From Chelativorans petroleitrophicus (lineage in GTDB: Bacteria; Pseudomonadota; Alphaproteobacteria; Rhizobiales; Rhizobiaceae), in contig NZ_JAODNV010000023.1 of NCBI RefSeq assembly GCF_025398195.1, forward strand, positions 1 through 42,720: a DNA stretch of 42,720 bases. Direction: 5' to 3'. Below, piece by piece: positions 11,006 to 37,850 of this stretch. The notes under the pieces are model-generated. The model did not search any database. It saw only the letters and a program-made list of their open reading frames with translations, and had not been told where the DNA came from. A program made the position numbers and the translations under genes. Within the stretch, counting starts at the first letter, position 1, and each line of letters begins with the position of its first letter.

Positions 11006-11035
11006 GCTTGGCCTGAACCGATAGGCCTACCGGCC

Positions 11036-14310: not shown

Positions 14311-14342
14311 GTTTTCGCACATGAGCGGCTGTCGCCCGGCGG

Positions 14343-14393
14343 CTACGCCGCCTTGCCCATGTGCGTTCGTACTACGAGAATGATCTTCATCAT
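14343..14393 (-). CDS. ilvIH leader peptide
   Basis: This 16-codon frame reads MMKIILVVRTHMGKAA, then TAG. It has five consecutive branched-chain codons (Ile-Ile-Leu-Val-Val), exactly what is expected of a leader peptide that senses charged tRNA for these amino acids. It is followed by an intrinsic terminator and then ilvI. There is no ribosome binding site, and the predicted transcription start falls on or just before the first ATG, so the message is probably leaderless. A leaderless attenuator message is established for the trp leader of Sinorhizobium. Confidence 0.8.
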   Translation of the reverse strand: MMKIILVVRTHMGKAA

Positions 14394-14401
14394 GGCGGGG
14401 G

Positions 14402-14431
14402 ACAATAAGCGCCAACCGCACGCCGTGTCAA
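14402..14431 (-). promoter_or_regulatory. ilvIH promoter
   Basis: Reverse strand: TTGACA (14431-14426), an 18-base spacer, then TATTGT (14407-14402). The start point would fall about 14,393-14,396, at the ATG of the leader peptide. Confidence 0.65.
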
Positions 14432-14556
14432 CGCAAATCAGACCGGGCTGCCCGCGGGTTCCCTACACGGGTTTCCCTGTTAACGGTCCCGCAACCATCC
14501 CCCCTCATCGCCCCTTAACTTCGCTGCGCTAGGGATTGTCCCAACAATTGGGGGGC

Positions 14557-16344: not shown

Positions 16345-16471
16345 AGAGCTGCCACCACCCCGCCGCTCACAGCAGGGTGGCGAGACGCCCGTTCAGAGTT
16401 ATATATCTGGCCGCAAACACGCCGCATTCCGGCCGAATCATCGGCGGGAGACTCAACGGGAGATTGCCGTC

Positions 16472-18007: not shown

Positions 18008-18010
18008 GCC

Positions 18011-18062
18011 AAAGATAGCTGGCCAAGCAACCAAAGAAAGATAGCCGGCCAAGCAACTAAAG
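18011..18062. repeat. tandem 26-bp repeat, two copies
   Basis: Copies at 18011-18036 and 18037-18062 are exactly adjacent and differ at two positions (T/C and C/T transitions). Each contains AAAGATAGC and GGCCAAGCAA. They start three bases after the degP stop codon. There is no obvious terminator structure; GGCC is the only symmetrical part. Confidence 0.95.
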
Positions 18063-18288
18063 GTGGTAGCGCGTGCAACCACGGAGCCGTGCGCCGCTAA
18101 ATGCGGAATGAATTCCTGTGAACATCATGACAAACTTTTCAGAAATTTGGCCCCGCTCGCTTATAGAGAAGGCGCGAAGGCAACGGCTGCCCGCCCCTTC
18201 CGCGTCGCGTCAGCGGAAAACGCGATGAAGGCAGTTGCCATTGGTTCCCCACCGAATATTCTATCTCGAAAGTTGTGGGGACTTGGGT

Positions 18289-19740
18289 ATGGATTTCAAT
18301 CAAGTAAAAAATCAGCTGGATTATGCGTCCGCTGTTCCGCTGCCACGCGCCGAGGATGAAATTGCGCTTTCAGATCTCCTCCGAATCATCTGGTCGGGTC
18401 GGGCGCTGATCGTCCTCATTCCTCTGCTTGCAATGGCTGCAACGGCCCTCGCTATAGGAGCCCTTTCCTTGCGGATCGATGAGCCCACCGTGTACTTTGT
18501 CGAGTTGCGGGGAATTGAAAACAGCCGATATCCGAATGGGACCGCATTCTCTCCCAGAGATCTGGTTGCGCCCGCAATCCTGGAGGAACTGCGCAGGCGC
18601 TACAACATTCCGGACGATACAAATTTAAGGGACGGGATAACGGTAACATTCGGGCACCCTGCCACGATCGGGCTGCACCGCCTCTATGAGGAAAAGCTGG
18701 CGGTCTCGAATCTGTCGCCAGCCGAGATCACCAGCATCAACGAGGAATATCGCACCCAGCTGAAGTCCGTTACCGAATCGGCACTGCGCATTGAGGTCAA
18801 TCACCAACTGCTCGGATTGAGCCCGGACGATGGCGCGGTCATAGCACAGGCACTGCCTGAACTATGGTCACAGCACTTCTCCGAAAACGTTCGTATTTTT
18901 GAGGATACACGCCTGTCGCGGGTCGAGATCACTTCCAGCAGCGAGGATTTGCGGACCACAGCGAGCATACTCAATGCCAGGCAGCGTCTGCAGATCATGG
19001 ATCAGGGTTTGGCATTGATGTCCGGTGACAACAGGTTGGCGTTGCTGCAAACGAGTGACGGCGAGACGATCGGGGATCTAAGGCAGGCCCTTCAGCGTTT
19101 TCGTACCGTGCAGTTCGATCCCGTTATGGCCGCCCAGTTCCAGGCGGACGACTTCGTAGGATCTGCCTACATAAAAAGCCTGCAGCTGAAGCTCGGCGAG
19201 CTTCGCATGAAGATGGCGAGCTATGACGATGCTCTGCAGGAGCTCTATAAATTCCAAAATTCAGCTGTCACGGTTGCGGCCCAGTCCGACAGCTCCTTCT
19301 TTCAGAATTCCCTTCAAATCACGGACACTGGTCTTTCCGAAATCGTGGAATTGGCAAAAAGGGCAAATTTGTCGGATTTCACGAGGCAAATGCTGGAAGA
19401 AAAACAGAAAATTGGTGCAGAAATCGCAGAGATAGAGAGTGAGCTTCAGAAAGTGATTCAGGATGCCAAGGCGGCCTCGACGCCTGATTTCCGCGACAAT
19501 GCCGCAGAAACTTTGGCATCTCTGACACGCAGCTATTCGGAGCTCGTGAAAGGGGCAAAGGAGAGACTTCGTACTCAGGCAGGCAAGCTTTATTCATCCA
19601 TGGGGCTGCCCTATACGGTTGGGGCAACGTTCCCCAAGCGCGCGATACTGGCAATCATCCTGGCCGGCGGCTTTGCGGCGCTTCTTACGGTGATATTCGT
19701 ATTGGCTCGCGCGAGTCTGCGGGCACACAGGCCGGCCTGA
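18289..19740 (+). CDS. membrane protein resembling a polysaccharide chain-length determinant
   Basis: This 483-residue protein has one membrane segment near the N-terminus (about residues 36-60, LIVLIPLLAMAATALAIGAL), a long helical periplasmic region with coiled-coil character (for example MLEEKQKIGAEIAEIESELQ), and a second membrane segment at the C-terminus (AILAIILAGGFAALLTVIFVL). That is the layout of Wzz-type polysaccharide co-polymerases, and the segment before the first helix (EIALSDLLRIIWSGR) also fits. No polysaccharide genes are nearby, so the function is inferred from topology. The start at 18289 follows GGGGACTTGGG, and a frame extension to 18235 is less likely. Confidence 0.6.
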   Translation: MDFNQVKNQLDYASAVPLPRAEDEIALSDLLRIIWSGRALIVLIPLLAMAATALAIGALSLRIDEPTVYFVELRGIENSRYPNGTAFSPRDLVAPAILEELRRRYNIPDDTNLRDGITVTFGHPATIGLHRLYEEKLAVSNLSPAEITSINEEYRTQLKSVTESALRIEVNHQLLGLSPDDGAVIAQALPELWSQHFSENVRIFEDTRLSRVEITSSSEDLRTTASILNARQRLQIMDQGLALMSGDNRLALLQTSDGETIGDLRQALQRFRTVQFDPVMAAQFQADDFVGSAYIKSLQLKLGELRMKMASYDDALQELYKFQNSAVTVAAQSDSSFFQNSLQITDTGLSEIVELAKRANLSDFTRQMLEEKQKIGAEIAEIESELQKVIQDAKAASTPDFRDNAAETLASLTRSYSELVKGAKERLRTQAGKLYSSMGLPYTVGATFPKRAILAIILAGGFAALLTVIFVLARASLRAHRPA

Positions 19741-19813
19741 ACCCTCGTACAGGAACTTGTGACGCTGTGTTTCGGCTCGACGGAGGTTTATCCGCATACA
19801 GCTCGCGGATTGG

Positions 19814-20707
19814 CTATGCCCCCGACACGAATTCCTCCTGACGGTATCCCTGCAGAAAGAGCAGCGCCGTCAGATCGCCGTGGTCGATCCGGAGGCGGGC
19901 CTCCGCGGCTACAGAGGGTTTGGCGTGCAAGGCCACGCCGGCGCCGGCCAGACGCAGCATATCGAGGTCATTCGCGCCGTCGCCGACAGCAATGACTTCG
20001 CTGGGTTCGATGTTCCGCTCGGCGGAGATTGCCATCAGCGCATCGGCCTTCGCCTTGCGGCCGAGAATGGGCTCGGCCACCGTGCCGGCAAGCCGCCCCT
20101 CCTCCACGATCAGCCGATTTGCCCTATGGTCGCGGAAACCGAGCTTGGCAGCCACAGGGCCGGTAAAGACGTCGAAGCCGCCGGAGACCAGCACCGTATG
20201 CGCCCCGGCAGCATTCATGGTGGCAACCAGTTCGCGGCCGCCCGAGGCCAGCCGGATTCGATGGGCGATCACCCGGTCCACCACCGCGAGCTCCAGCCCC
20301 TTGAGCAAGGCCACGCGCTCGCGAAGCGCGGGCTCGAAAGCAATCTCGCCGTTCATAGCCCGCCGGGTGATGGAGGCCACGTGGTCCTTGATGCCGATTT
20401 CGTCGGCGAGTTCGTCGATGCACTCCTGCTCGATCATGGTCGAATCCATGTCGGCAATCAGCATCTTCTTCTTCCGCCCCTCGGCCTGCTGCAGGGCGAT
20501 ATCCAACGGAAAACCGGCAAGGGCCGCGCGCAGGGCTTCTTCAGCCTGCTGAGCATCGATGCCTTCCGGCAGACAAATGTCGCAGGCAATTCCTGGGGCG
20601 AGCCACTCAATGCGGCTTGCGTCCACACAGCCGGCAGCCATATTCGCGACGGAGGGATCGAGCGCGCGGGCTTTCGGGTCGGAGATGAGCGTCGCAACAA
20701 TGGTCAT
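19814..20707 (-). CDS. serB: phosphoserine phosphatase
   Basis: SerB makes serine from phosphoserine. The 297-residue protein has an N-terminal ACT-like region and a C-terminal HAD domain with motif I (LIADMDSTMIEQEC, nucleophile Asp), motif II (VLVSGGFDVF) and motif III/IV (VIAVGDGANDLDML). The start is ATG 20707 (MTIVATLISDP), which overlaps the ATG of the divergent miaA by two bases. A longer frame to 20848 would run deep into miaA and is not supported by family length. Confidence 0.97.
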   Translation of the reverse strand: MTIVATLISDPKARALDPSVANMAAGCVDASRIEWLAPGIACDICLPEGIDAQQAEEALRAALAGFPLDIALQQAEGRKKKMLIADMDSTMIEQECIDELADEIGIKDHVASITRRAMNGEIAFEPALRERVALLKGLELAVVDRVIAHRIRLASGGRELVATMNAAGAHTVLVSGGFDVFTGPVAAKLGFRDHRANRLIVEEGRLAGTVAEPILGRKAKADALMAISAERNIEPSEVIAVGDGANDLDMLRLAGAGVALHAKPSVAAEARLRIDHGDLTALLFLQGYRQEEFVSGA

Positions 20708-27029: not shown

Positions 27030-27162
27030 ATCGTTCCCTCGCAGCCTCTCCTGGTTCAGCCCATCCCTCGCTGCAACGAAACGTCGCATCGCCCCACGGC
27101 CGGAAGCTTCGGCAATCACCCCTGTGGAGTCAACGAAAAATGCGCTTTGGGGCGCCCTGGGG

Positions 27163-27191
27163 TTTTCATTTCAACCGGTTCTCACTATATC
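27163..27191 (+). promoter_or_regulatory. candidate ssrA promoter
   Basis: TTTTCA (27163-27168), a 17-base spacer, and TATATC (27186-27191). Transcription would start near 27,197. Confidence 0.45.
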
Positions 27192-27402
27192 TGATGGCGT
27201 CAGCTTCGGGCTGACTATGGCGATAAACGGCCGATGCAATAAGCCAATCGGACCCGGGGGCAGTGCCCGGCGCCTCCACCAGAAACTGCCGGCCAGCCAG
27301 GAGGGGCGGCTTCTGATGGGGGCGAAACAGGATCGACGATGGTGTAAAGATCGGACCTTCGCCCGGCATGGTACCACCGTTATCGGACCGAACCTAATAG
27401 TT

Positions 27403-27441
27403 GCCAACGACAACTATGCGGAAGCCCGTCTCGCTGCGTAA
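27403..27441 (+). other. tmRNA tag reading frame
   Basis: The tag reads ANDNYAEARLAA then TAA, starting at the resume codon GCC after TAGTT, as in other tmRNAs. The Leu-Ala-Ala end is the ClpX recognition signal, and the ANDNY part is where SspB would bind. sspB is at 38,060. Confidence 0.95.
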
Positions 27442-27496
27442 GCGGCGCGACAGCTTCACTTCAAGTCTCAGGCCGTCGCAGGCCTGAGCGGGGTCC

Positions 27497-27526
27497 GGAG
27501 GCACCTGGCAACAGAAGCCTCCACTT
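27497..27526 (+). terminator. ssrA 3' hairpin, truncated of its T-run by insertion
   Basis: GGAGGC (27497-27502) pairs with GCCTCC (27517-27522). Here it is followed by ACTTCCTTCC, a poor T-run. At the other end of the element the same GCCTCC is followed by ACTTTTTTTG (37841-37856), which is what an intrinsic terminator needs. The original T-run therefore seems to have been moved about 10 kb away. Confidence 0.65.
27514..27526. repeat. attL core
   Basis: GAAGCCTCCACTT, identical to the copy at 37838-37850. It is part of the ssrA 3' hairpin, so the element rebuilds the end of the RNA on insertion. Confidence 0.85.
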
Positions 27527-27568
27527 CCTTCCTTTCCCGCTATCCATTTGATTTTCCACGATTTCCAT
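27527..27568 (-). other. 5' end of the attachment-split gene
   Basis: Just after the integrase stop, the reverse strand opens a frame from ATG 27568 (or ATG 27547) that reads MEIVENQMDSGKGR up to the attL core. In the integrated state it runs on into antisense ssrA. In the excised circle it continues in frame through the core into 37837-37593. The integrase TGA overlaps a TTG in this frame. Confidence 0.55.
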
Positions 27569-27579
27569 TTTCCATTTTT

Positions 27580-28638
27580 TCAACGTTTTACAGCTTTGTC
27601 CTGTTTCCGTTCTTTCAGGCTGAGCAAGATGGCCTGCCCGCCTTTCTTCCGGTCAGCATAGCGGCTGTAGCGTTCGACCATGGGAACGCTCATTCCCACC
27701 GCATCGCTTATCTGCAGGGCGGTGTAGCCTTCCTGCCGCAGCCGGATGACGGCATTCGCCCTGAGACCGTGCCAAACAACGCCCTGTAGCTCGGGATGCT
27801 TTTCCCGCTCCTTATCGAGCATCTTCCACAGGAGATTCGTTGTGAAGGGTCGGCCACTGTCCTGCAGGAGAAACGGGCCAGGCCGCTTCTCCCAGGTCGC
27901 CATTTCCGCTTCCAGCTCAGGAAAGATCGGGCACCACGGCTCGACGCCCGTCTTTTTCTGGCGAAGGCGGAAGCCGCCATCGTCTATGTCGGTCCAGCCA
28001 AGCCGCACAAGATCGCTGATACGCTGCCCTGTGTAGCGCCCCAGCACGTAGGCGCGGCGCAACATGCCGGTGAAATGCTTGTCCGCGAAATCCAACTGCT
28101 CAGGCGTCCAGGGCTTGTGCCCCTCGCCTCTATCGAAATGCGCAACACCATGCGTCGGATCTCGGCTCAGAAGCTCGCGCGGTCCACATGCCCAGCGGCA
28201 CATAGCGCGGAGAGCATCGAGCACATTATTCGCGGTGCCCGGTTTCTTGGCTCCTATCTTCTCGATCAATGCTTGCACATGGGAAGGCCGAAGGCTATCG
28301 GCCGGGAGATTGCCCCAGGCGTCCCGCACGACGCGCAGAGATTGGCGATACTTTTCCTGCGTGCTCTCGCTCAGCTTGCGCGGAAGGCTGGGCCATGCTG
28401 TTTCGTAGGCGTCTATCAGGGCGCCGATTGTGCCCGTAGGAACCGGGCCAACAATGCCCTGCGCCTGCCGCACAGCTTGCCAGAACTCGGGTGAATGCGG
28501 ATCGTTCGGAAGCTTTATGCGCTCGCCCTGGTGGTCGGTGCCCCGGCCTGCCTGATAGTAGAAGTATTCCCGCCCGCGCGAGACGACGCGGTGCACGCCC
28601 TTCGGCAATGAGACTGCTGCTCTACGCCGCCGTTTCAT
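27580..28638 (-). CDS. tyrosine recombinase (integrase) of the ssrA element
   Basis: This 352-residue recombinase has Arg206 (RYTGQRISDL), Lys229 (RQKKTG), His290-Arg293 (HGLR) and nucleophile Tyr324 (MVERYSRY). The N-terminal arm-binding and core-binding domains are present, with full length. It lies 54 bases from the attL core, as expected for an enzyme acting on ssrA. Its start overlaps the end of the AlpA gene by 17 bases. It is the last gene of the operon that starts at about 29,744. Confidence 0.96.
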   Translation of the reverse strand: MKRRRRAAVSLPKGVHRVVSRGREYFYYQAGRGTDHQGERIKLPNDPHSPEFWQAVRQAQGIVGPVPTGTIGALIDAYETAWPSLPRKLSESTQEKYRQSLRVVRDAWGNLPADSLRPSHVQALIEKIGAKKPGTANNVLDALRAMCRWACGPRELLSRDPTHGVAHFDRGEGHKPWTPEQLDFADKHFTGMLRRAYVLGRYTGQRISDLVRLGWTDIDDGGFRLRQKKTGVEPWCPIFPELEAEMATWEKRPGPFLLQDSGRPFTTNLLWKMLDKEREKHPELQGVVWHGLRANAVIRLRQEGYTALQISDAVGMSVPMVERYSRYADRKKGGQAILLSLKERKQDKAVKR

Positions 28639-28879
28639 TCAGAGCCGCCAAGAATGGATCATTGTCGGGTTGCGGACCGTTACCGGCCATTGAAGCAAGC
28701 GCCGCCTCAACCTGAGCCCAGCACCACCGGACTGAACCGCCGATCTTTATCGGCTTGGGAAGCAGGCCGCGCTGCACATAGTCGTCAACTGTCGATTCGG
28801 AAATGTCCAGTTCGGCCGCCAAGGTCGCCTTGGAGACAAAGGAAGGCGGTCGCTGGCCTATGAGAACGGCGCGGGCCAT
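28622..28879 (-). CDS. AlpA/excisionase-type DNA-binding protein
   Basis: This 85-residue protein has a helix-turn-helix of the AlpA/HTH_17 type: FVSKATLAAELDISESTVDDYVQRGLLPKPIKIGG split over residues 14-48, then the conserved VRWCWAQVEAAL. Such proteins help excision or activate island genes. It is typical of phage satellites to carry one beside the integrase. Its start lies two bases after the stop of the unknown gene upstream, so the genes are coupled. Confidence 0.82.
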   Translation of the reverse strand: MARAVLIGQRPPSFVSKATLAAELDISESTVDDYVQRGLLPKPIKIGGSVRWCWAQVEAALASMAGNGPQPDNDPFLAALNETAA

Positions 28880-28881
28880 GA

Positions 28882-29181
28882 CTAACGGCCCCTATTACAT
28901 GCGGTCATGGGTCCACACTCCAGAGATGCTGCCTGCCGACATGACAGACAGATCACCGCAGTGCCCTCCAAGCGACGGACCGCGCGACATGCGTCCCCGT
29001 GGCTCCCGTCCTCGACGCACATCGCAACTTCCTGATACGCGCCCAAGTGCCAATTGGCAAGCCCCTTCAAGTCTGTCCTGTGAATAGTTGCGGCTCGCCG
29101 TTCTTGACCGTCAATCAGCTTCATGCCGACATGGTGCGGCAGGTGATCAGGGGTGTGGAAAGAGGCGGGCGAAAAAATCAT
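28882..29181 (-). CDS. unknown small protein in the integrase operon
   Basis: This 99-residue protein has no family I recognise. It has four cysteines near the C-terminus (CLSCRQAASLEC and a later Cys). Support for a real gene is positional: its ATG overlaps the stop of the MerR-like gene (TGATG style) and its own stop lies two bases before AlpA. Confidence 0.5.
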   Translation of the reverse strand: MIFSPASFHTPDHLPHHVGMKLIDGQERRAATIHRTDLKGLANWHLGAYQEVAMCVEDGSHGDACRAVRRLEGTAVICLSCRQAASLECGPMTACNRGR

Positions 29182-29744
29182 TCGTCGCCCTCTTCGCTGG
29201 ACGAAGCGGCGTCCTTGATCGTGATAATAAGCTTTTCAAGAGCGGCAGTGAGGCTTGCTTCCTCTTCGGCAGACCAATCGTCTAATTCGGAGCCCAACAA
29301 AGCGCGCTGAACTGCCCTCGCCACAACAGGGCTCAGAGCAATCGAAATATAGGCGTCGGGATATTCTCCAGGCTTCATTTCGTCAGCATCGACGATGCGC
29401 ATTAGCCATTCGCCTTGGGAGCGCCAAAGCAAAAGCCGCTCGCCAACAAATCGGACCGCGTGGGCAAAGTGCGTGGCGTTCGGGTCATAAGTGACGCGGT
29501 GCCCCATGATGATCACATTGGCGAAATCGCTTGCTTCTTCGACGGTTAAGCCAAAATCAACCATCTGGCGCACGAGCGCCAATATGGCGACATCAGCAAG
29601 GTTGAACTCACGCCAGCCCGAACCCTCAGAAGTCGTGAGGCTAACCTGCTTACGCTGAAGCCAGTTCCTGAGCGACTTCGGCGTAGCGTCGATCGCATAG
29701 GCCACGTCCGAAAACCGCAATTTCCTGTCCATTAAGGCGTTCAT
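29178..29744 (-). CDS. MerR-like regulator of the element
   Basis: This 188-residue protein has an N-terminal MerR-like helix-turn-helix (LRFSDVAYAIDATPKSLRNWLQR, then GWREFNLADVAILALVRQMVDFGLTV). The C-terminal half is of unknown type and ends in an acidic tail. AGAGG lies 9 bases before ATG 29744. It is first in the operon with the 99-residue protein, AlpA and integrase, and has its own promoter, so it may control excision or itself. Confidence 0.7.
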   Translation of the reverse strand: MNALMDRKLRFSDVAYAIDATPKSLRNWLQRKQVSLTTSEGSGWREFNLADVAILALVRQMVDFGLTVEEASDFANVIIMGHRVTYDPNATHFAHAVRFVGERLLLWRSQGEWLMRIVDADEMKPGEYPDAYISIALSPVVARAVQRALLGSELDDWSAEEEASLTAALEKLIITIKDAASSSEEGDE

Positions 29745-29774
29745 TGGAATGGCCTCTTATGAGCACTTTACGCA

Positions 29775-29803
29775 AATATGCTCCGCTGATGATATTTTGT
29801 CAA
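29775..29803 (-). promoter_or_regulatory. promoter of the regulator-AlpA-integrase operon
   Basis: Reverse strand: TTGACA (29803-29798), exactly 17 bases, then CATATT (29780-29775). The -35 overlaps the stop codon of the zinc-finger gene upstream. An inverted repeat GAGCA/TGCTC flanks the -10 region and could be an operator. Confidence 0.6.
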
Positions 29804-30057
29804 GTGCAGGTCCGCCTCCGCTTCTGCCGACACCGCTCGCTGCAATATTTCTGATGGCTCCGCTTGGCGCCCGTGATCGGCTCGCCGCAGACCACACACT
29901 TGAGCCTGGCGCGCTCTTCCGCTCGGGCTTTCGCCGTCAGGCCGTTGAAGTAGTCGTTCAGGCACTTCCGATCACAGAATATCCGCCGCCAGTGCCTCAA
30001 GTCCGGCAGGCGCTTGCCGCACTGCTCGCACCATCCGGGTTCATGCAGCGTCAGCAT
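29800..30057 (-). CDS. small zinc-finger protein
   Basis: This 85-residue protein has two CxxC...CxxxC pairs: CEQCGKRLPDLRHWRRIFCDRKC-type near the start (residues 10-32) and CVVCG ... YCSERC near the end. These look like treble-clef zinc fingers of the FCS type. The start at ATG 30057 (GAGG seven bases upstream) overlaps the preceding gene by only a few bases. The frame is open to 30186, but that would overlap 136 bases. It resembles the C-terminal half of the next protein, so duplication is possible. Function unknown. Confidence 0.6.
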   Translation of the reverse strand: MLTLHEPGWCEQCGKRLPDLRHWRRIFCDRKCLNDYFNGLTAKARAEERARLKCVVCGEPITGAKRSHQKYCSERCRQKRRRTCT

Positions 30058-30668
30058 GGCCGCCTCGTCATCGCTGAATTGTGCCGATTTGCGCAGACTT
30101 TGCTGCAAAAGCGCCTTCCAGGCCGGGAAGGGCGGAACTTTTGGCCGCACTGCTCGCATGGCTGTTCGGGCTGCTTCGCGGACCAAGCGGCGTACCAGGC
30201 GCGAACGCGAGCGTTCATTGCCTCGCGCTCATGGAGCCGGGAAATCGCGGCTTGGTGGTTCTTCGCACAGATGGATGAACAGTATTTGTGATGTCCATCG
30301 GGCAGCTTCCAGCCGCAGCGTATGCAGCGTGTGCGCTCGAACACCACAACGCCGTCTTGGGTGTATTCAGGCTGGCCTTCCTTCCATGAAGGCCGATACG
30401 CCCCGATGCGATTCAAGGCCGCGTCGACGATCTCTTTCGCTGCGGTTTCGGCCTCGTGCCAGCCCCAGCCTTCCAGGCAGAGATGTTGGCGAAGGCCATG
30501 GCGGCAATCGGCCTCCAAGGCGAATTTCGTCGGTGTGCCCTCTGCGAGAATAAGCGCTGCCGCTTCCACCAGAAGGCGGCGCTTGTCCTTGGTGATGCGT
30601 AGCTTTTTCCGCTTCCGCTCCGTTTCGGGCTTCGGTGTCCAGGGCAACCGGGAGAGCATCAGCCTCAC
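30051..30668 (-). CDS. zinc-finger protein downstream of portal
   Basis: This 205-residue protein starts with a basic region (KPETERKRKKLRITKDKRR) and a helical part, then has two Cys clusters: CIRCGWKLPDGHHKYCSSIC and CEQCGQKFRPSRPGRRFCSKVC. Both look like FCS-type zinc fingers. It overlaps the portal gene stop by four bases (ATGA). Its place in the operon could suit a DNA-recognition role, for example in packaging, but this is speculation. Confidence 0.65.
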   Translation of the reverse strand: MRLMLSRLPWTPKPETERKRKKLRITKDKRRLLVEAAALILAEGTPTKFALEADCRHGLRQHLCLEGWGWHEAETAAKEIVDAALNRIGAYRPSWKEGQPEYTQDGVVVFERTRCIRCGWKLPDGHHKYCSSICAKNHQAAISRLHEREAMNARVRAWYAAWSAKQPEQPCEQCGQKFRPSRPGRRFCSKVCANRHNSAMTRRPC

Positions 30669-31873
30669 TCCTTCGGCGCGCCGGTTTGCTCCCTGTTCAT
30701 GTTGAGCGGGCTCAGGTACGCGTCAGCCTCTGCATCGGTGCGCGGGTTCAGGTTCTCGAATCGCCGGAGATCGTTGGCCGAATAGACGCCCACTTCCCGC
30801 CCTATCCTGTACGCCTGGAAGCGGGTCAAGATGTCGGCCCTCACCAGAAGATCGGTATCGAACTCCACTTCGTGGCTGCGCCGTCCGGCCTCGCTGAAGA
30901 GGTCGCGCATGATGGCTTGCTCCCATCGCACCAACCAGGGCTGCACGGTTCCAGCGGCAAACTGGCGCCTCATCTCCACAACGTTCGAATAGTTCGCGTT
31001 GGAAAGCTCATTCAGAAGCGGCGCGGGGATGTTGAAGATTCTGGCAACCTCAAGCACGGCCAGGCGGCGGGCTTCTGACAGTTCGGCGTCATGCGGCGTG
31101 GCGGAAACCTCTTTCCACTGCATGCCCTCTTCAAGAACGCCAATCTTTCCCGCGTTCTCGCTACCGCCATACAGGGCTTGCAAGCTCTCCCGGAGCGTCT
31201 TTGCTGCTTCCGGCCCGATCTGTTCAGGATGAGTCACGATGCCGCTCAGCCGCGCTCCATTGCGCCACGTAGCGGCTGCGAATCGCTCTGTCGCAACGGC
31301 ACCGCCCAGGGCCTCACGCGCCCTGTCGAGCCGGGAGCGAGGCGTGAAAGGATCGTCCCAACGGTCACGAAGAATGAACACCTCGCCCGGTAGCAGGCGC
31401 CGGGTTCCCACCTCGTCGGAAACTTCAAAGCGAATGCGGCGGGTGCCGGGAATGCGTTCAAGGCTCACCTGCCCCGGATGGATAGGCCATATGGCCGCAG
31501 GATGCCCATTGCCGTTCCGCTCGATCTCGGCAACCGCATAGCCATGAAGAAGGCAGTTTGCCTGCATGGTGGCGATGAACTCGGCAGGTGTCTGAAGCTC
31601 ATTGGGCGCCTCGGTGAAGAGCCTGGCGACGGGATGGCTCGCCTCGGCTTCGCGCACGCCCCCGGCTTCCTTCCGATAGACCAGGAGCGGCAGCATCGCC
31701 ACGGCTTCACTGATGATGGTGATGGCGCTGAAGGCAGCGGCATTGCCCTCCACCACGGCAGGCGAGACGAGGCCGCCCGTGAGGGTCGGGAAGCCAAGTT
31801 GCCCAAGAAGGTCCCAGGAGGTCGGAGCCGCACGGGTTTCCCTGCGGCCCAGGAAGCGGTCAATGATGCCCAT
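30665..31873 (-). CDS. HK97-family portal protein
   Basis: This is a 402-residue portal protein, the ring through which DNA enters the capsid. It has the family features AAFSAITIISEAVAMLPLLVYRK, HPVARLFTEAPNELQTPAEF, LLHGYAVAEIERN, and in the clip and wing region VLEVARIFNIPAPLLNELSNANYSNVVEM. Length is typical. It follows the prohead protease by two bases. Confidence 0.96.
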   Translation of the reverse strand: MGIIDRFLGRRETRAAPTSWDLLGQLGFPTLTGGLVSPAVVEGNAAAFSAITIISEAVAMLPLLVYRKEAGGVREAEASHPVARLFTEAPNELQTPAEFIATMQANCLLHGYAVAEIERNGNGHPAAIWPIHPGQVSLERIPGTRRIRFEVSDEVGTRRLLPGEVFILRDRWDDPFTPRSRLDRAREALGGAVATERFAAATWRNGARLSGIVTHPEQIGPEAAKTLRESLQALYGGSENAGKIGVLEEGMQWKEVSATPHDAELSEARRLAVLEVARIFNIPAPLLNELSNANYSNVVEMRRQFAAGTVQPWLVRWEQAIMRDLFSEAGRRSHEVEFDTDLLVRADILTRFQAYRIGREVGVYSANDLRRFENLNPRTDAEADAYLSPLNMNREQTGAPKE

Positions 31874-31875
31874 TT

Positions 31876-32391
31876 TCAGCAGCTCTCCATCCAGCGGCGG
31901 GCGGCAATGAGGCGAGGCGCGACTGTGGGCCGCCGCCTTGCCTGCACGGTCGTGCCCTCATACGCCGGCCATGCGGACACAATGCTGATCTCGTGAAGGT
32001 TGACGGCCCGGAGCTCTCGCCGGTTATCGGTCCAGCGCTCGCCCTTGTCCCGAACAGTGAACCCGAATGACATGCCACCAATGTCGCCCCTCTCGGCGAG
32101 TTCGAGGAGGTCCCGGCCAATTGACGTGTTCGGCACGTCGAGGTCGAAGTGAAGGCCTCGGCTGTCCTCTGATAGCCTGAGCGTCCCTGAGCGCGTCCGC
32201 GCCAGAACCGCCTTGGGATCGTGGTCAGCAAGGGCAAGCACGTCCCTGCCTTCGCGCAGCGTGTCGGTAAAGGCGCCGGGCAGGATGACTTCGGTGAAGT
32301 CGGAAATGCGCGTGTCGACGCCATAGAGGGCCGCATAGCCCTCCAGGCGCCGCCCCTTGGCCCGCAATTCGAGTGATGCCCGGCGCTCCAC
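31876..32391 (-). CDS. HK97-family prohead protease
   Basis: This 171-residue serine protease processes the capsid after assembly. It has the family N-terminus (LEGYAALYGVDTRISDFTEVILPGAF), then LADHDPKAVLARTRSGTL (catalytic His) and GDIGGMSFGFTVRD (catalytic Ser). The start is GTG 32391 with GGAG seven bases upstream, four bases after the capsid stop. The frame's ATG at 32466 would overlap the capsid gene by about 70 bases. Confidence 0.93.
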   Translation of the reverse strand: MERRASLELRAKGRRLEGYAALYGVDTRISDFTEVILPGAFTDTLREGRDVLALADHDPKAVLARTRSGTLRLSEDSRGLHFDLDVPNTSIGRDLLELAERGDIGGMSFGFTVRDKGERWTDNRRELRAVNLHEISIVSAWPAYEGTTVQARRRPTVAPRLIAARRWMESC

Positions 32392-32395
32392 GCTC

Positions 32396-33697
32396 TTACT
32401 CCGAACCCTCCGAACCCACGGGAAGGTCATCCGCGTAGGCAAAGCTTTCCGGATGCCGGACTGCAATGTCCACGTCCTGCATCGCCCTCACCATGACGCG
32501 GCCCTTGGCGTAGGCCGTTGAGTCGTAGGGGTTGACGAGGAGGTCAATGCCCGTCCAGCGTCCGATAAGAAGCTGCGACCATGCCCCGAAAATGACGGTG
32601 GAATTGTCCGCCTCATCGCCGTCCACATCGGGCAGCGCGGTGGTCGTGACGGCGGCATAACCGGCGAGATTGCCCGGTTCGTTCATCAGGAACCCGGCGC
32701 CCGCGTCCTCGTCCACCTTCAGCGTGGCGCGAAGCTTGGCAACCGCCTTCGGCGTCATGGCCCAACCCATCGATCCGATGTCGGCGTCGGCGCTTTCGAT
32801 GCTGGCGATGAAGTCCAGCACCTCGGCCCAGGAAGGCGTACCGAGCGATAAGGCGTGAACGTTCGAGGTGTTGATGATGCCGGTAGGAATATTGTTTGAG
32901 CCGGAACCCATGAGCGCCGCAGCGTCAACAGCACGGGCGACCACGGCGGCAAGATCGCGGCGAACAATCTGCTCAACCGACGGGACGGCATTGAGCATCG
33001 TGCGACGGCTGAACGAAGTCATGGCCGCAACGGTGTGAGGCGAAAGCGTAACGTCCGAGAACGTCGCATCGGATGAGGTAATGTCTCCCTCTTCGGCCAC
33101 CCAGTAGGCGGCGCTGGATCCAGTCTGTTTCGGGATTTCAATGGTGCCCACAAGCCCGTCCAGCACGGTCGCGCCCAGGCGGCCCGTAACCATGGCGCTG
33201 CGGCGCATGTCAATGAACAGGTCACCGCGATGGACAGTCGGCGCCAGGGAGAAGGCCGCGCCAGGCGATCCGGAATCGCCAACCGTCAGCGTCCGCTTTT
33301 CCGCCAGGAAAACTTCATCAGGTACCGCGATGCCGGAGAAGCTGCGGCCCGTGCGGCGCTGAAGCTCGGCAGACAGTTCGCGTTCCCGGCCATCGTCGAC
33401 ACGCTCGCCCATGGCTGCGCGGATGGCGGTGGTGATCGAAAACTCTCGTGCGCGGTCCTCGAAGGCGCCGTCCTTGCCATTGCCCGAGATGATGGCGGGT
33501 GCGGAACGCTCGGCCTCCTGAACGTCCTTTGCGCGCTGAATCTTAGCGTCCAGCGCGGTGATCTCGGCCTTGAGCTCGCCGTGCCGCTTCTCTTCCTCTG
33601 CCGTGTAGTCGCGCGACTCGGCTTCCACCTGGTCGGCAATCCGGCGCATCTCGGCAACCGCCGCCGCTCGTTTCTCCTGAAGCTCGTGAACTTTCAT
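32396..33697 (-). CDS. HK97-family major capsid protein
   Basis: This 433-residue capsid protein has the coiled scaffold (delta) domain at residues 1-75 (for example YTAEEEKRHGELKAEITALDAKI), then the HK97 shell (GGDSGSPGAAFSLAPTVH-like VGDSGSPGAAFSL, ALMGSGSNNIPTGIIN, GYAAVTTTALPDV, FGAWSQLLIGRWTGID). The protease would remove the delta domain. The start at 33697 (GAGGAAAGAG upstream) is preferred to 33742. Confidence 0.96.
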   Translation of the reverse strand: MKVHELQEKRAAAVAEMRRIADQVEAESRDYTAEEEKRHGELKAEITALDAKIQRAKDVQEAERSAPAIISGNGKDGAFEDRAREFSITTAIRAAMGERVDDGRERELSAELQRRTGRSFSGIAVPDEVFLAEKRTLTVGDSGSPGAAFSLAPTVHRGDLFIDMRRSAMVTGRLGATVLDGLVGTIEIPKQTGSSAAYWVAEEGDITSSDATFSDVTLSPHTVAAMTSFSRRTMLNAVPSVEQIVRRDLAAVVARAVDAAALMGSGSNNIPTGIINTSNVHALSLGTPSWAEVLDFIASIESADADIGSMGWAMTPKAVAKLRATLKVDEDAGAGFLMNEPGNLAGYAAVTTTALPDVDGDEADNSTVIFGAWSQLLIGRWTGIDLLVNPYDSTAYAKGRVMVRAMQDVDIAVRHPESFAYADDLPVGSEGSE

Positions 33698-33960
33698 GCG
33701 TCTCTTTCCTCTTTCGTGCACGAAATAACCGGTAGTGCGCATTGTCGCGCAATAATCTTACGTTATCAAGTCATATAGCGCAAGAATGTTGCGTCGTGCA
33801 GGGGAAGCAGCCCGCCTCGCGCTGCATCGCCAAAGCGGTAACCTCGGTAACCTTTCAGAAGAAAGCTAAGGAAAACAATAGGTTGGGGAGGCGGCAAAAG
33901 TTACCGCCTAAGCCATTAAGCGGTAACCTTGGTAACCTCGGTAACCTTTGTGGCTCTGCT
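33698..33960. other. intergenic gap between terL and capsid genes
   Basis: This 263-base gap is the largest but one in an otherwise packed element. It holds the GGTAACC repeat array and an AT-rich stretch near 33,740-33,790 that could hold the capsid promoter. No gene found. Confidence 0.6.
33837..33946. repeat. array of five GGTAACC repeats with 9-bp period
   Basis: GGTAACC starts at 33837, 33846, 33922, 33931 and 33940, as two clusters with exact 9-base spacing. The reverse-oriented GTTACCGC occurs at 33900-33907. Copies are mostly GGTAACCTY followed by G. They look like binding sites for one protein: an origin iteron, a packaging site or a multi-site operator. Confidence 0.85.
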
Positions 33961-35583
33961 TCAGGCCGCTACGTCCACGGAAAAGACGCCCCGAGAGCGG
34001 TACACCGATTGTTTCTTCGGAGGCGTTCGGGAAGCAAGGCCGACGGCCATAGCGGTTGCCTGAAGGCCATCAATTCGGCCCGTGCTCTTGGCTTTGTCCA
34101 GCTTCCGCCCGCCTGCCGGATTCATGACGGCCACGGCATTGGACACACACCAGTCGAGCACCGGGTTCTTCGGGTGGCGAAGTTCCTTTTGCAGAACAAG
34201 CTTTTCCAGCGCGTCGAGCGCGGGACTCATATCCTGAAAGCCCTGCCCCCATGGGATCAGATCGAGGTTGATGCCTTCGTCGGCAAGGATGCGCTGAAGC
34301 TCGCCCATGCCCCAGCGGTCGTAGGCGCAACCCTGCACGTCATAGGCGGTGACGATCCCGCCTATGCGGTGCGCCACGAAAGCCTTGTCTATGGCGCGGC
34401 CCGGCGTGGCCTGAATAAAGCCCTGCCGCACCCATGTTCGATACGGGACATGATCCAGCCTCTCGGCCTCGTCGAGTCCTTCGGCGGGTTTCCAGAACCA
34501 CGTGAGCAGGTCGCCGGTATCGGGAAAGAACGCTGCCAGCGCCGTCAAGTCCGTGGTTGAGGATAGATCAAGGCCCAGGAAGCAGCGCTTGCCCTTGAGG
34601 CCCTCGACGTCGATCTCAGCGGCACACGCTCGCCAGTCAGTCGCCGCAAGAAACCGTTCCTCGGCCTCTATGCGCATATTGAGGCGAAGGTTCATGAACC
34701 TCGGCAGGAATGACGGGACGCGCTTTGCCCGCTCTGCCTGAGCGCGAAATTCCGTCTCGTCGAGGAAGATTCCCCATGCCGGGTTTACGGCCTGCCATAG
34801 CGCCTCGTCGAATGGATCGCACCCCTCTGGCGCGGCGGTGAGTTGGATGTACGTGCTTGAATCCGCGCCCTTCAGTGCGTCATCTATGAGCACCGACAAG
34901 GGATGCTGATCCGTGGCGGCCTGGGTCGAGATGACGATGCCAAGGCTTTCCTTCCTTTTGCCTTGAGCCGTCTGGAGGTTATCGAAAAGCTCATCTGTCT
35001 TAACTTGGGCGTACTCGTCATAAACCCACAGCGAGGGCGCAAGACCGTGCCCGCGCCGAACGTCCGCTGACAACGCCTCGTAGATCGAGCCTTTGCCGGG
35101 ACCTTCTAGAACCTCGATTTGCTTATGGAAGCGTATGACGTTTGTGCGAGCGTCGAACTCAGGGACGGCCTCAATGATGGCCGCCATTTCCGCGAACAGA
35201 AGCGCGGCTTGCTTCTTGTCAATTGCCGCCGAATAAATCTCTCCTCTCGGCTCGCTTTCCGGCCCGAGGAGGTGACATAGGCAAAGCCCGGCGATCAGGC
35301 CGGTTTTCCCGTTTCCACGAGGTTCGCTCTTGATCGCAAGCCTTATCTTCCGCCGCCCGTTCTCGTCGAGCCGCCCGTAGACGTTCTCCACGAACTCACG
35401 CTGATTCGGGAGAAGCTTCATCTTCTGCCCGGCAAGGATTCCTTTTGTTATTGGCAGAAATTCGAGGAAAGCAATCACGCGTTCAGCACGGGAAAGCCCG
35501 CGCTTTTCCCACGGCAGCTTGCGAGCGCGGGTTTTCGCCGCCGCGTTCTTCTTCGCCCTCGCCCCTGGTCCTCGAAGTCCCAT
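33961..35583 (-). CDS. large terminase subunit
   Basis: This is a 540-residue packaging motor and nuclease. The ATPase has a variant P-loop SEPRGNGKTGL (residues 86-96) and Walker B LWVYDEYAQ (185-193). The C-terminal nuclease has FLGLDLSSTTDLTAL (metal-binding Asp) and RIDGLQATAMAVG near the end (Asp). The basic N-terminus starts MGLRGPGARAKKN, which resembles the start of P27-type small terminases, but no separate small terminase gene is seen. It is 9 bases downstream of the HNH gene. Confidence 0.96.
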   Translation of the reverse strand: MGLRGPGARAKKNAAAKTRARKLPWEKRGLSRAERVIAFLEFLPITKGILAGQKMKLLPNQREFVENVYGRLDENGRRKIRLAIKSEPRGNGKTGLIAGLCLCHLLGPESEPRGEIYSAAIDKKQAALLFAEMAAIIEAVPEFDARTNVIRFHKQIEVLEGPGKGSIYEALSADVRRGHGLAPSLWVYDEYAQVKTDELFDNLQTAQGKRKESLGIVISTQAATDQHPLSVLIDDALKGADSSTYIQLTAAPEGCDPFDEALWQAVNPAWGIFLDETEFRAQAERAKRVPSFLPRFMNLRLNMRIEAEERFLAATDWRACAAEIDVEGLKGKRCFLGLDLSSTTDLTALAAFFPDTGDLLTWFWKPAEGLDEAERLDHVPYRTWVRQGFIQATPGRAIDKAFVAHRIGGIVTAYDVQGCAYDRWGMGELQRILADEGINLDLIPWGQGFQDMSPALDALEKLVLQKELRHPKNPVLDWCVSNAVAVMNPAGGRKLDKAKSTGRIDGLQATAMAVGLASRTPPKKQSVYRSRGVFSVDVAA

Positions 35584-35592
35584 AACCGACAG

Positions 35593-35964
35593 TCACTTTT
35601 GGTAACTAATTGAATTTTGAGGGTCGCGCGCCGGTGTGAGAGCAGGCGATGCCGTGATCGAACGCCCCCCGCCGGTGTACCATGGGTGCGCTGGATCACG
35701 TGGCGATCCATCCGGAAAGCAGCCTCGGTGTTTTGGTGGCGTCCACGTCCGCCCGGTGCGCTCGGCTGCCGTCTTGGCGTTATGACAATCCTGGCAGAGC
35801 GATTGCCAGTTTGACGACTTCCATATGTCACCGCCGCGCGAGACAGGCACGATGTGATCAACATGCTTCGCTGGCTTGGTGAGACATGCTTCGCACATAG
35901 GCGAACGGCTAAGCTGCATGCGCCTGCATTTCTGCCAGCGCGCCGTATCGTAGAAGCGCGTCAT
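35593..35964 (-). CDS. HNH endonuclease
   Basis: This 123-residue nuclease has CEACL, the HVDHIVPVSRGGD motif and NWQSLCQDCHNAKT, a complete HNH site with a zinc-binding Cys pair. HNH proteins next to the large terminase are required for packaging in HK97-type phages. ATG 35964 overlaps the adaptor stop (ATGA). Confidence 0.94.
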   Translation of the reverse strand: MTRFYDTARWQKCRRMQLSRSPMCEACLTKPAKHVDHIVPVSRGGDIWKSSNWQSLCQDCHNAKTAAERTGRTWTPPKHRGCFPDGSPRDPAHPWYTGGGRSITASPALTPARDPQNSISYQK

Positions 35965-36305
35965 GCGCCACCTGTGCAATCTATAGTCAGGAACCGCTTT
36001 CGCTCATCGAGATTGCGCAGGGATGTGATGTCCAGGGTCTCGCCACGGTAGACCAGACGCCACCCGGTGCGAACATCATCGCGATAGCGGATATGCACTG
36101 CCACGTCATAAGGGCTCGCCAGGCGCCCGGCTATGACGCGCTCCTCGCCCTTCAGTGGCTCGACACGGGCGGCGATTGGGCCAATCTCATGCCATGTCAC
36201 GGTCGTGCCGCCCTGCCCGTCGCTTTCCTCGACTCGCTCCAGAAGGGTCACATGCTCCCGAAGATTGCCGATCCGCTGCGCGCGATATGGCTCCCGACTG
36301 GTCAT
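35961..36305 (-). CDS. head-tail adaptor (head closure) protein
   Basis: This 114-residue protein fits the SPP1 gp16/HK97-type head-tail adaptor family: IGNLREHVTLLERVEESDGQGGTTVTWHEI, then IAARVEPLKGEERVIAGR, VHIRYRDDV and GWRLVYRGETLDI. ATG 36305 overlaps the connector stop. Such proteins prepare the capsid for tail attachment, which fits an element that borrows tails. Confidence 0.87.
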   Translation of the reverse strand: MTSREPYRAQRIGNLREHVTLLERVEESDGQGGTTVTWHEIGPIAARVEPLKGEERVIAGRLASPYDVAVHIRYRDDVRTGWRLVYRGETLDITSLRNLDERKRFLTIDCTGGA

Positions 36306-36616
36306 TCCGTGGTTTCCTCGCAAGGCTCCAGAACGCCACCGCGAAGCTGGGCAATCAGGCTGCGAACATGCAGGGGAACGTTGGCAACGGATGCGTCGAT
36401 CACGACAGGCTCACGCTGTTCGTACCAATGTGTTGCCAGCGACATGACGGCGATTTTCGCTTTTTCCGGCACATCGGCATCGGAATAGCTCTTGCCCGTC
36501 GCCTGCTCGATGAATTCCACCGCCGCCGCAAGCATCGTGGTCAGCGTGGCGTCATCATCATCAAAGTCGACGCGGGCAAATGCTTTCAGCTCCTCGAGGG
36601 TGACGGGCTCAGCCAT
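36302..36616 (-). CDS. head-tail connector, gp6-like
   Basis: This 104-residue protein is of the HK97 gp6-like connector family: VTLEELKAFARVDFDDDDATLTTMLAAAVEFIEQATGKSY, then KIAVMSLATHWYEQREP and the C-terminal NVPLHVRSLIAQLR. ATG 36616 has GGAG about 12 bases upstream. It is the first of four coupled genes with the adaptor, HNH nuclease and terminase. Confidence 0.87.
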   Translation of the reverse strand: MAEPVTLEELKAFARVDFDDDDATLTTMLAAAVEFIEQATGKSYSDADVPEKAKIAVMSLATHWYEQREPVVIDASVANVPLHVRSLIAQLRGGVLEPCEETTE

Positions 36617-37141
36617 GCGTGGCGCTCCGGTTTCATGCAAACTTCTTGCGTAAAGATAGCCGTTTGCGCAAACTTCTGCAATCAATGCCGCCATATCCTT
36701 TTTTTTTCTTCCTTCCCGCCTTCGTTCGCTCGCTTCGGGGCTCGCTCACTTCGGCTCACGCCGCTGGGGACATGCTCGATGGTGAGGGCGGTGGTGAAGG
36801 CATACGTCCCCCTCCGCTTGGGAAGGGGGACTGTCATGCTCGACGGAGCCGGGCGTATGGAGCCTAAAGCATGAGCGGTTTGCCGGATTGCCTCTGGGGG
36901 ACATATGTCCATCGAGGCGCGCGCGAGGGTCAGCCTGTTCGCGCTACCGGTGCATCACAACTGGCGGGCTAAGACGACATGCCAAACCGTCCGACATGTC
37001 GCCACGGGGGAACTTCCCCATCCTTGGACGGCGGTATCCCGCGACGTATCTAAGTGCGTTTTGCCTTCGTGTTCCCCAACGGCCTGGCTAGCCGCTGAGC
37101 ACGAGTCCCGACAGACGGGCTGGGCTATGTCGTGGCACCGC
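36617..37141. other. long noncoding region at the right end of the element
   Basis: These 525 bases hold no convincing gene. They contain palindromes GTTTGCGCAAAC (36662), GGACATATGTCC (36899-36910) and CGACATGTCG (36992-37001), and a stem GTCCCCCT/AGGGGGAC (36806-36813 with 36824-36831). They also contain a T-run at 36,698-36,708. The region probably holds operators, and perhaps an origin or packaging site. Confidence 0.55.
36653..36681 (-). promoter_or_regulatory. candidate promoter of the connector-terminase operon
   Basis: Reverse strand: TTGCAG (36681-36676), 17 bases, TATCTT (36658-36653). The spacer contains a perfect palindrome GTTTGCGCAAAC (36662-36673). GCAAACTTCT occurs twice at 36637 and 36668, exactly 31 bases (three helical turns) apart. 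A regulated late promoter is a reasonable reading. Confidence 0.4.
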
Positions 37142-37372
37142 CTATCTTGCAGGCGGTATCCACTCAAATCTGTTGAACCGATCTACGCGGGCGAACCCGC
37201 GCTTGACGAAGTGCATTCCGATTTTCAGGCCAAGCCATTCCCGATCTCGGAGCCGAGCTCCTCGCGTCTCACCAGCCACAGCGGCAGTGCCAAGGTCGAG
37301 GGCGCTCGCGCATCCCTTCTGTGTCAGGTATCTGAGCGCACGAGATTCGCGCCTGTCGCGGCGGCGGGTCAT
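37142..37372 (-). CDS. small basic protein of the right end
   Basis: This 76-residue protein is rich in Arg, with a helix-rich middle (RALRYLTQKGCASALDLGTAAV) and C-terminal VKRGFARVDRFNRFEWIP, which could be a winged helix. ATG 37372 overlaps the stop of the 74-residue protein upstream (ATGA). No family recognised. Confidence 0.5.
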   Translation of the reverse strand: MTRRRDRRESRALRYLTQKGCASALDLGTAAVAGETRGARLRDREWLGLKIGMHFVKRGFARVDRFNRFEWIPPAR

Positions 37373-37593
37373 GCGACTCCTCCCGCTACGTAGCCGCACA
37401 GCCCCTCGTCTGACAGGCTTTGCCGAATACGGTTCGCCTCGCCCGGTGACTCGCAGAGGATCGTTTCAACCGCGCAGCCGACGCGGTGAATAGTGATAGC
37501 GGTTCCCCTGCCCCAGCGTTCCACCACAAAGTGGCCTTGGGGCTTTGCGGCAAGCCAGTCGCCAACATTGTCGAAGCGAGGTCGCACGGTCAT
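37369..37593 (-). CDS. small unknown protein of the right end
   Basis: This 74-residue protein begins MTVRPRFDNVGDWLAAKPQGHF and has TAITIHRVGCAVETILC. Its ATG overlaps the stop of the attachment-split gene by one base (TAATG). No family recognised. Its tight coupling on both sides supports a real gene. Confidence 0.5.
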   Translation of the reverse strand: MTVRPRFDNVGDWLAAKPQGHFVVERWGRGTAITIHRVGCAVETILCESPGEANRIRQSLSDEGLCGYVAGGVA

Positions 37594-37850
37594 TACCCTG
37601 CCCTCCGGAACTCATTGGCGAGTCGGATGGCGTCGCAGGCCTCTTTTGCCGTTAGCGAGAAGCGCTCGCGCAGGTTGGGCACGATCGGGCGCGGCGGGTT
37701 GGTCTCGCCTGCCAACCAGCGGGCAGCAATTTCCGTTTTACAGTCGGCCGGTTTGTTCTGCGCCCGTTCCTGCTTTTCCGGGTTTCCGCTGAAAAACGCA
37801 TCTTCTTGATTTTCAAGCGGAATTGCCGTTTTAAGCGGAAGCCTCCACTT
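37593..37850 (-). CDS. 3' part of the attachment-split gene (no start in the integrated state)
   Basis: This frame of 85 codons ends TAA at 37595-37593. The last 45 residues look like a small DNA-binding protein (TEIAARWLAGETNPPRPIVP, then ERFSLTAKEACDAIRLANEF). Upstream in the host there is TAA at 37859-37857 and no ATG or GTG start; a TTG inside the frame has no ribosome binding site. The missing start lies at the other end of the element (27568-27527). Excision would give a 99-residue protein. Confidence 0.6.
   Translation of the reverse strand, partial: KWRLPLKTAIPLENQEDAFFSGNPEKQERAQNKPADCKTEIAARWLAGETNPPRPIVPNLRERFSLTAKEACDAIRLANEFRRAG
37838..37850. repeat. attR core
   Basis: GAAGCCTCCACTT, matching attL. 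It is followed by TTTTTTG, the likely original T-run of the ssrA terminator. Confidence 0.85.

Follow-up and report, generated by a model that had tools for sequence, protein, structure and literature searches.

A probable capsid-forming phage satellite integrated at ssrA in Chelativorans petroleitrophicus

Is a phage-like element that encodes a head and no recognised tail a satellite in its own right, or is it what remains of a virus? We asked this of a mobile element of ~10.3 kb at positions 27,514 to 37,850 of contig NZ_JAODNV010000023.1 of Chelativorans petroleitrophicus, whose genome measures 3.96 Mb. The window, meaning the whole stretch of DNA that was analysed, is the complete contig of 42,720 bases; the element lies well inside the contig ends and is flanked by two copies of a 13-bp repeat. 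On the evidence of sequence comparison, it is probably a phage satellite that is integrated in the host genome, forms its own capsids, and functions in the manner of a capsid-forming phage-inducible chromosomal island (cf-PICI). We base this reading on head-only gene content between repeats, a gene order shared by most related loci, relatives bounded by repeats of their own, circular-looking contigs, a second such element in the same genome, and the adjacency of a MerR-like gene to the capsid gene in relatives. The recurrence of numerous relatives of similar size in related bacteria suggests that such elements are a stable type of satellite dependent on borrowed tails and not the remains of a virus.

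The initial annotation had described a discrete head-only element at ssrA, the gene for transfer-messenger RNA (tmRNA), and this description held. Pfam and PHROGs scans of 19 open reading frames (ORFs) in the window, on which the gene names are based, placed an integrase, an AlpA-like protein, and most of a head gene set between the repeats at 27,514 and 37,838. The features are as follows.

27159..27525, plus strand: ssrA (tmRNA), the attachment gene; Rfam RF01849 alpha_tmRNA, 292.6 bits
27514..27526, plus strand: attL-side 13-bp repeat, GAAGCCTCCACTT, at the 3' end of ssrA; exact-match search
27580..28638, minus strand: tyrosine integrase, 352 amino acids (aa); phrog_1 1.3e-33, Pfam Phage_integrase 1.1e-5, just under the cut-off
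28622..28879, minus strand: AlpA-like excisionase/regulator, 85 aa; phrog_66 7.9e-8, Pfam HTH_17 6.4e-4, below the cut-off
28882..29181, minus strand: ORF of 99 aa that may not be a gene; no family, no relative among the fetched loci
29178..29744, minus strand: MerR-like regulator, 188 aa; Pfam MerR_1 9e-7
29800..30186, minus strand: Cys-rich zinc-finger-like protein, 128 aa; phrog_1271 3.3e-12, kin in L123, L125, L141, and L147
30051..30668, minus strand: Cys-rich zinc-finger-like protein, 205 aa, with four invariant Cys; kin in L123, L124, L125, L141, L147, and L150
30665..31873, minus strand: portal protein, 402 aa; PF04860 9.2e-91, phrog_12 2.4e-101
31876..32466, minus strand: prohead protease (S78); PF04586 4.1e-42
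32396..33697, minus strand: HK97-type major capsid protein, 433 aa; PF05065 6.8e-44, capsid tree
33833..33947, no strand: five GGTAACC repeats in the gap between the large terminase (TerL) and capsid genes; pair motif with 3 exact matches, 0 in 100 shuffles
33961..35583, minus strand: TerL, 540 aa; phrog_9 3.2e-126, PF20441, PF03354
35593..35979, minus strand: HNH endonuclease; PF01844 8.1e-11
35961..36323, minus strand: head-completion protein or adaptor (stopper type), 120 aa; PF05521 7.3e-22
36302..36694, minus strand: gp6-like head-tail connector, 130 aa; PF05135 5.7e-16, phrog_40 2.5e-29
36,682 to 36,912: ORF, probably not a gene; no significant family, no relative
37142..37399, minus strand: small ORF of 85 aa, winged-helix-like by eye; no family, relative 5' of HNH in L160 (1.8e-10)
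37369..37593, minus strand: small ORF of 74 aa that may not be a gene; no family, no relative among the fetched loci
37593..37850, minus strand: far-end gene, an open frame up to the repeat (first listed start codon 37,715); phrog_24797 8.3e-6
37838..37850, plus strand: attR-side 13-bp repeat; repeat search

The assigned genes all lie on the minus strand and together occupy 91.8% of the element. In the direction of transcription, the small far-end gene and two small ORFs are followed by the connector, adaptor, HNH, and large terminase genes, the intergenic stretch with GGTAACC, the capsid, protease, and portal genes, the two Cys-rich proteins, the MerR-like gene, an unassigned ORF, and the AlpA-like and integrase genes. 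The main ORFs are intact and overlapping. Neither a tail nor a lysis family was found in the 19 ORFs, and the same scans gave no significant replication family, in agreement with what the initial annotation had said of all three.

How well is the element delimited? Exact copies of GAAGCCTCCACTT occur just at 27,514 and 37,838 in the whole 42,720 bases, at a spacing of 10,324 bp. When the longest repeat was sought on the reverse strand of the far side as a control, it measured 10 bp. ARAGORN places ssrA at 27,186 to 27,532. In 2 of 15 loci examined (L201 and L207, from two congeners; L numbers denote loci), a tmRNA lies no more than 1.5 kb from the same right flank, leaving no room for such an element between; the remaining 13 had no tmRNA in reach and are hence uninformative.

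Does the same gene set recur as a unit in other genomes? A capsid search of 397 genomes of the order gave matches in 12 at an E value of ≤1e-20, the own genome included; eight of these have the order capsid-protease-portal, and four have capsid frames of at least about 600 aa without a separate protease or portal match. With a capsid profile, 15 of 398 genomes of the phylum matched at 1e-20. A profile of 11 capsids then yielded 153 loci, 73 from named genomes and 80 kept of 290 viral contigs. To judge by their titles, most of the named genomes are Alphaproteobacteria; the exceptions are L073, L078, and L107, and a further four are titled simply as proteobacterium. The order capsid-protease-portal was present in 110 of the 153 loci, which hold 98 distinct capsid ends, so that the loci are not all independent. 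A terminase lies upstream in 61 of the 68 loci of this order with more than 4.5 kb upstream, and a window-like integrase in at least 35 of 51 loci with more than 5 kb downstream, a count that misses other integrases. Nine loci were too short or otherwise unclassified.

The initial annotation had named one outcome that would speak for a simple deletion, namely the same genes in the order of a tailed prophage. Phage order, with the portal before the capsid, was seen in one of the 153 loci (L162), a result that does not overturn the satellite reading. Another 33 loci, classed by capsid length and sequence matches, have long capsids and no separate protease or portal match; these are probably more distant tailed phages, because the tailed phages Persinger, Arya, and RcRhea, whose capsids are related, also have long capsid genes. 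In these three HK97-type phages, a capsid gene of 619 to 685 codons stands between the portal gene upstream and tail genes downstream, and the capsids are 31 to 33% identical to that of the window. In a capsid tree of 75 rows, they fall in a separate clade that unites all 20 phage-labelled rows (99/97), among which are 18 long capsids together with L162 and L163, whose capsids are not long. The window falls in a six-row clade (100/100) with viral contigs L120, L122, L124, L125, and L128; in L122 the adaptor lies directly 5' of HNH, as in the window. The capsid of L049 groups with gene transfer agent (GTA) and phage rows. Phage and satellite labels in the tree come from gene order and capsid length, so the separation is partly built in.

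Are these relatives discrete? We tested 29 rows (two of them, L054 and L062, being duplicates) that had integrase and portal matches and a tRNA or tmRNA beside the integrase, seeking a repeat of the RNA 3' end 6.5 to 16.5 kb away. Eighteen relatives proved to be bounded by tRNA-end repeats of 14 to 51 bp, versus 8 to 12 bp on the control strand, and the spacing of their repeats was 9,509 to 11,165 bp (mean, 10,387; standard deviation, 570). The search of related genomes that the initial annotation had proposed thus found the unit between att repeats in 18 cases. The genome of C. petroleitrophicus itself contains a second head-only element at a tRNA-Glu (C23, 159,155 to 169,504; L271, L272), with a 16-bp repeat (control, 11 bp) at a spacing of 10,334 bp. 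This element carries integrase, portal, capsid, HNH, TerL, and AAA_25 ATPase genes, and no tail family was found in the 10 ORFs scanned.

These data bear on the possibility that the element is a prophage decaying after loss of its tail, lysis, and replication genes. Portal and terminase are indeed related to phage-like loci, such as L025 with tail-type genes by eye, the element has no recognised replication gene, and related capsids occur in the 33 loci that are probably tailed phages. However, the head-only unit recurs in bounded relatives of narrow size, in circular-looking contigs, and a second time in the same genome; the main ORFs are intact and overlapping, and the gene set was in phage order at a single locus. 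We consider decay improbable, as the initial annotation had argued, and retain the satellite as the preferred reading.

If the relatives are satellites, do they too lack tail and lysis genes? From the 18 bounded elements we took 105 ORFs outside the core genes, each 80 aa or longer, which in two halves matched 21 and 18 Pfam families; these tallies, at an E value of 0.001, are complete lists. No lysis family was among them, and the sole tail family was TMP_2, found once in each half. Selection followed descending size, and any smaller ORF was discarded at an overlap of more than a quarter; as a result, antisense ORFs took the place of some real genes (that for the MerR-like protein of L034, for example, is missing from the 105). 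ORFs overlapping core genes were not rescanned. A further 54 non-core ORFs from seven relatives (five clade members, L141, and L147), five of which are possibly incomplete, matched 17 Pfam families, likewise a complete list, none of tail or lysis; of their 27 PHROG families, the 25 listed included no tail family and one virion structural family (phrog_3758, 1.2e-7). Replication families did appear, AAA_25 in five and HTH_36 in six of the 105 ORFs, and PHROGs gave a like result among the 25 of 91 families listed. Since these families are seen in relatives and not in the window copy, the lack of a replication family in the latter looks like a real difference.

Three of the 80 viral contigs look circular: L125 (10,999 bp) and L128 (10,583 bp) have identical ends of 125 and 141 bases, and L165 (~10.2 kb) has identical ends of 97 bases, a pattern typical of assembled circular genomes. 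L125 has an integrase-type recombinase and, like the window, encodes both Cys-rich proteins. Nine integrase queries found no relative in L128 or L165, and these two may be episomal. Could the element, then, be one that makes capsids and spreads without tails, for example by vesicles, competence, or plasmid-like mobilisation? The circular-looking contigs, two of them with no integrase relative found, are in line with this, as is a 16.9-kb Roseomonas plasmid annotated with portal, protease, capsid, terminase, and HNH genes. Against it, the connector and adaptor, whose known role is in joining head to tail, are kept in many loci of satellite order, and no lysis gene was recognised, so that release also seems to need a partner. 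Spread without tails appears very unlikely. The plasmid in question (L220; CP099479.1, Roseomonas mucosa pTT14-8, 16,883 bp, circular, its terminase annotated as large) has no tail gene by name and is perhaps a satellite-plasmid.

For a satellite that borrows tails, we then asked which source could supply them. We searched the genome for six tail families. PF06199 alone matched, once, at C9:74,487-74,882; PF06791, PF10145, PF09718, PF04984, and PF05939 had no match in a search that was not exhaustive, and PF09718 and PF05939 match in just 1 of 14 control genomes. Around PF06199, the C9 cluster contains a capsid and a stopper together with a terminase that is 77% identical to its GTA-type counterpart in a C. 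intermedius locus. We read this cluster as a probable GTA from its layout and from general knowledge of such clusters. PF06199 lies in a GTA-type cluster only, and a phage-like element on C13 runs, by eye, into host DNA; the tails could therefore belong to a phage from elsewhere, to a tail type outside the six families, or to the GTA, and the adaptor tree does not decide among these. The C13 element (~7,900 to 19,900; L021) and L029, L030, and L031 are phage-like and carry terminase, portal, connector, and adaptor genes; inspection by eye shows a lysis-type enzyme after these, then host DNA, and no tail. L030 also has a pair that resembles DarT/DarG by eye.

Might the satellite take its tails from the resident GTA rather than from a phage? 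The one match among the six tail families lies on C9 beside GTA-type head genes. The best match of the adaptor outside itself, among 201 genomes, is the stopper of the C9 cluster (38%, 4.9e-16), versus 2.1e-8 for the C13 element. In addition, relatives in Chelativorans, Pararhizobium, and Bosea (L074, which equals L043 plus L032; L055, repeated by viral contig L173; and L118) are inserted between terL and portal genes that we read as GTA-type. The best exact repeats at these three loci were 10, 12, and 10 bp, versus controls of 10, 11, and 11 bp, and their ends are not defined. On the other hand, an adaptor tree (62 rows, 100 columns) did not place the window row: by path it is closest to two cyanophage rows, and the highest identity in the tree set is 41%, to the satellite-order contig L182. 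The adaptor also matches the solved stopper of RcGTA at an E value of 0.89, weaker than its match to SPP1 gp16 (1e-8), and the search for other tail families was not exhaustive. The pairwise matches had suggested the GTA as the source of the adaptor, and the tree gave this no support. We consider a GTA unlikely as the tail source. The broader proposal, that a large and old family of ~10.4-kb head-only satellites exists in Alphaproteobacteria and that some of them take tails from a host GTA as helper, likewise has a small chance of being right. If it were true, a domesticated host system would be the helper, and insertion between terL and portal would couple the satellite to GTA production or take it over.

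The capsid-forming satellite that we favour may also have its own control gene. In the 135 loci that match for capsid, protease, and portal alike, an iterated MerR-like profile found 57 ORFs, of which 47 are distinct; the iteration used an E value of 1e-3, and the most distant members are less sure. Of the 57, 53 lie on the same strand as the capsid gene, from 60 bp of overlap to 466 bp upstream of the capsid start, while in the window, L056, and L123 the gene lies downstream of the capsid. An AF2 model of the MerR-like protein (pLDDT, 79.9) has as its nearest PDB entry 7xn2, the MerR-type regulator CvkR (E, 7.9e-5), and from this model we read the protein as a regulator. We had also considered it as the small terminase, and the 50 listed of 207 structure matches included no terminase by title. 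Going by gene position, our guess is that the head genes are under its control, with the GGTAACC cluster, a candidate operator or origin, as the possible site of action.

Other parts of the element have their own relatives. The integrase has close kin in elements at ssrA in L036 (1.2e-174) and L037 (2e-173), and kin of the AlpA-like protein adjoin the integrase in L036, L037, and M010. Kin of the far-end gene lie 5' of HNH in L055, L032/L074, L026, and L027. The two Cys-rich proteins gave weak zinc-finger and HNH-type matches in Pfam and PHROGs, and the zinc part of the 128-aa protein has a marginal match to a PHROG of DNA polymerase/primase (E, 0.014); an AF2 model of the 205-aa protein (pLDDT, 77.5; pTM, 0.40) had a best PDB match at an E value of 1.0. 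The capsid start is more likely at 33,697 (MKVHEL...) than at the first start codon, 33,742. Outside the element, the Rhizobiales small RNA Atu_C8 matched at window positions 14,276 to 14,397 on the minus strand (94.8 bits).

Several observations weigh against a satellite of this kind. The 13-bp repeat is above its control yet short. In the repeat test, 9 of the 29 rows (L036, L037, L051, L061, L076, L080, L116, L117, and L119) gave 0 to 11 bp, not clearly above control, although two pairs represent one element each and some contigs stop before the far end would be reached; in L037, which is also at ssrA, the repeat measures 9 bp and does not exceed its control, and the spacing is 10,378 bp. 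Two of the 18 bounded relatives carry the tape-measure-like TMP_2 (L033:5186-7618, 2.8e-16; L086:7016-9034, 2.3e-15); both have capsid, protease, portal, and integrase, and neither matches the TerL or HNH of the window. The 49 satellite-labelled capsid rows need three label changes in the tree and are not one clade. The head order of the element is connector-adaptor-HNH-TerL-capsid-protease-portal, versus HNH-TerL-portal-...-connector-adaptor in ordinary phage-like loci, which leaves the connector-adaptor pair in an unusual position. The six tail families revealed no resident tailed prophage, within the limits of that search. Finally, the 19 ORFs gave no significant replication family and no clear match to a small terminase. 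As to the latter, the AlpA-like protein has a match to phrog_57 (terminase small subunit) at 1.7e-5 that ranks after its excisionase match, and the HNH protein touches phrog_4581; the gap between HNH and TerL is 9 bases, and in L134, L135, L142, and L152 an ORF of 152 to 191 aa, P27-like by eye, occupies that place.

Is the element then a cf-PICI, as the initial annotation had proposed? Elements of that class are induced by a helper phage and travel in chimeric particles that bear its tails. It shares with cf-PICIs a discrete integration with integrase and att repeats, an AlpA homologue, its own capsid, protease, portal, and connectors, a large terminase with HNH, and the lack of recognised tail and lysis genes (features as given in PMC10690885 and PMC10448857), and to this extent the proposal stands. 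It differs in that no Pri-Rep initiator was found in the general scans of the 19 ORFs, in which a Pri-Rep model was not searched by name, and in that no small terminase was recognised. The average cf-PICI measures 14 kb, versus ~10.4 kb here, and the main hosts listed in PMC10803314, the source of that average, do not include the hosts here. A PDB sequence search with the capsid gave 11 matches, none named as a cf-PICI capsid. With neither a replication initiator nor a small terminase recognised, and with the comparison to published cf-PICIs made by description, we do not file the Chelativorans element as a member; that it works like a cf-PICI is our best reading. Capsids of cf-PICIs are described as three separate radiations (PMC11389934), and a further cf-PICI-like origin in Alphaproteobacteria would fit that account.

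Other known systems resemble the element in part. The cf-PISP satellite-plasmids of Vibrio share head genes, HNH, terminases, and the lack of tails, but are episomal, with plasmid maintenance genes and 15.8 kb, and known from Vibrio only according to their authors (PMC13230959), whereas the element here is integrated. Our plasmid search for cf-PISP-like capsids returned 35 records, 0 from Vibrio. Candidate PICIs of Mycobacterium and phiRv1/phiRv2 share an integrase and a capsid in a phage-like unit; they belong to another phylum and were compared by description (PMC10654092). Homologues of the portal, protease, capsid, connector, and stopper are shared with RcGTA-like GTAs. GTA clusters carry tail genes and are not known to encode an integrase, whereas the element is bounded by repeats, has an integrase, and has no recognised tail gene or family.

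How might such a satellite work? A signal from a helper would lead the MerR-like or AlpA-like regulator to turn on excision and the minus-strand genes, and the resulting circle of ~10.3 kb would be replicated by enzymes of the host or the helper. Small heads of fixed capacity would be filled by TerL and HNH and closed by the connector and adaptor, with tails and lysis supplied by the helper. After injection into a new cell, the DNA would integrate at ssrA. Since the family varies so little in size, its heads are predicted to be small and of a single capacity. The genome of C. petroleitrophicus combines two of these elements and a GTA-type cluster with the lack of a recognised tailed prophage, which makes it a good system for the question of the tail source.

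In the titles and passages that our literature search covered, Alphaproteobacteria are hardly mentioned among satellites, and no paper title names such elements in that class. A prophage survey of Hyphomicrobiales counted 1,160 (493 plus 667) of 1,860 prophages as incomplete (PMC11080155), and prophage surveys may have counted elements of this kind as incomplete prophages. If the mechanism proposed here is true, capsid-making satellites would be a common and long-lived route of DNA transfer in Alphaproteobacteria.

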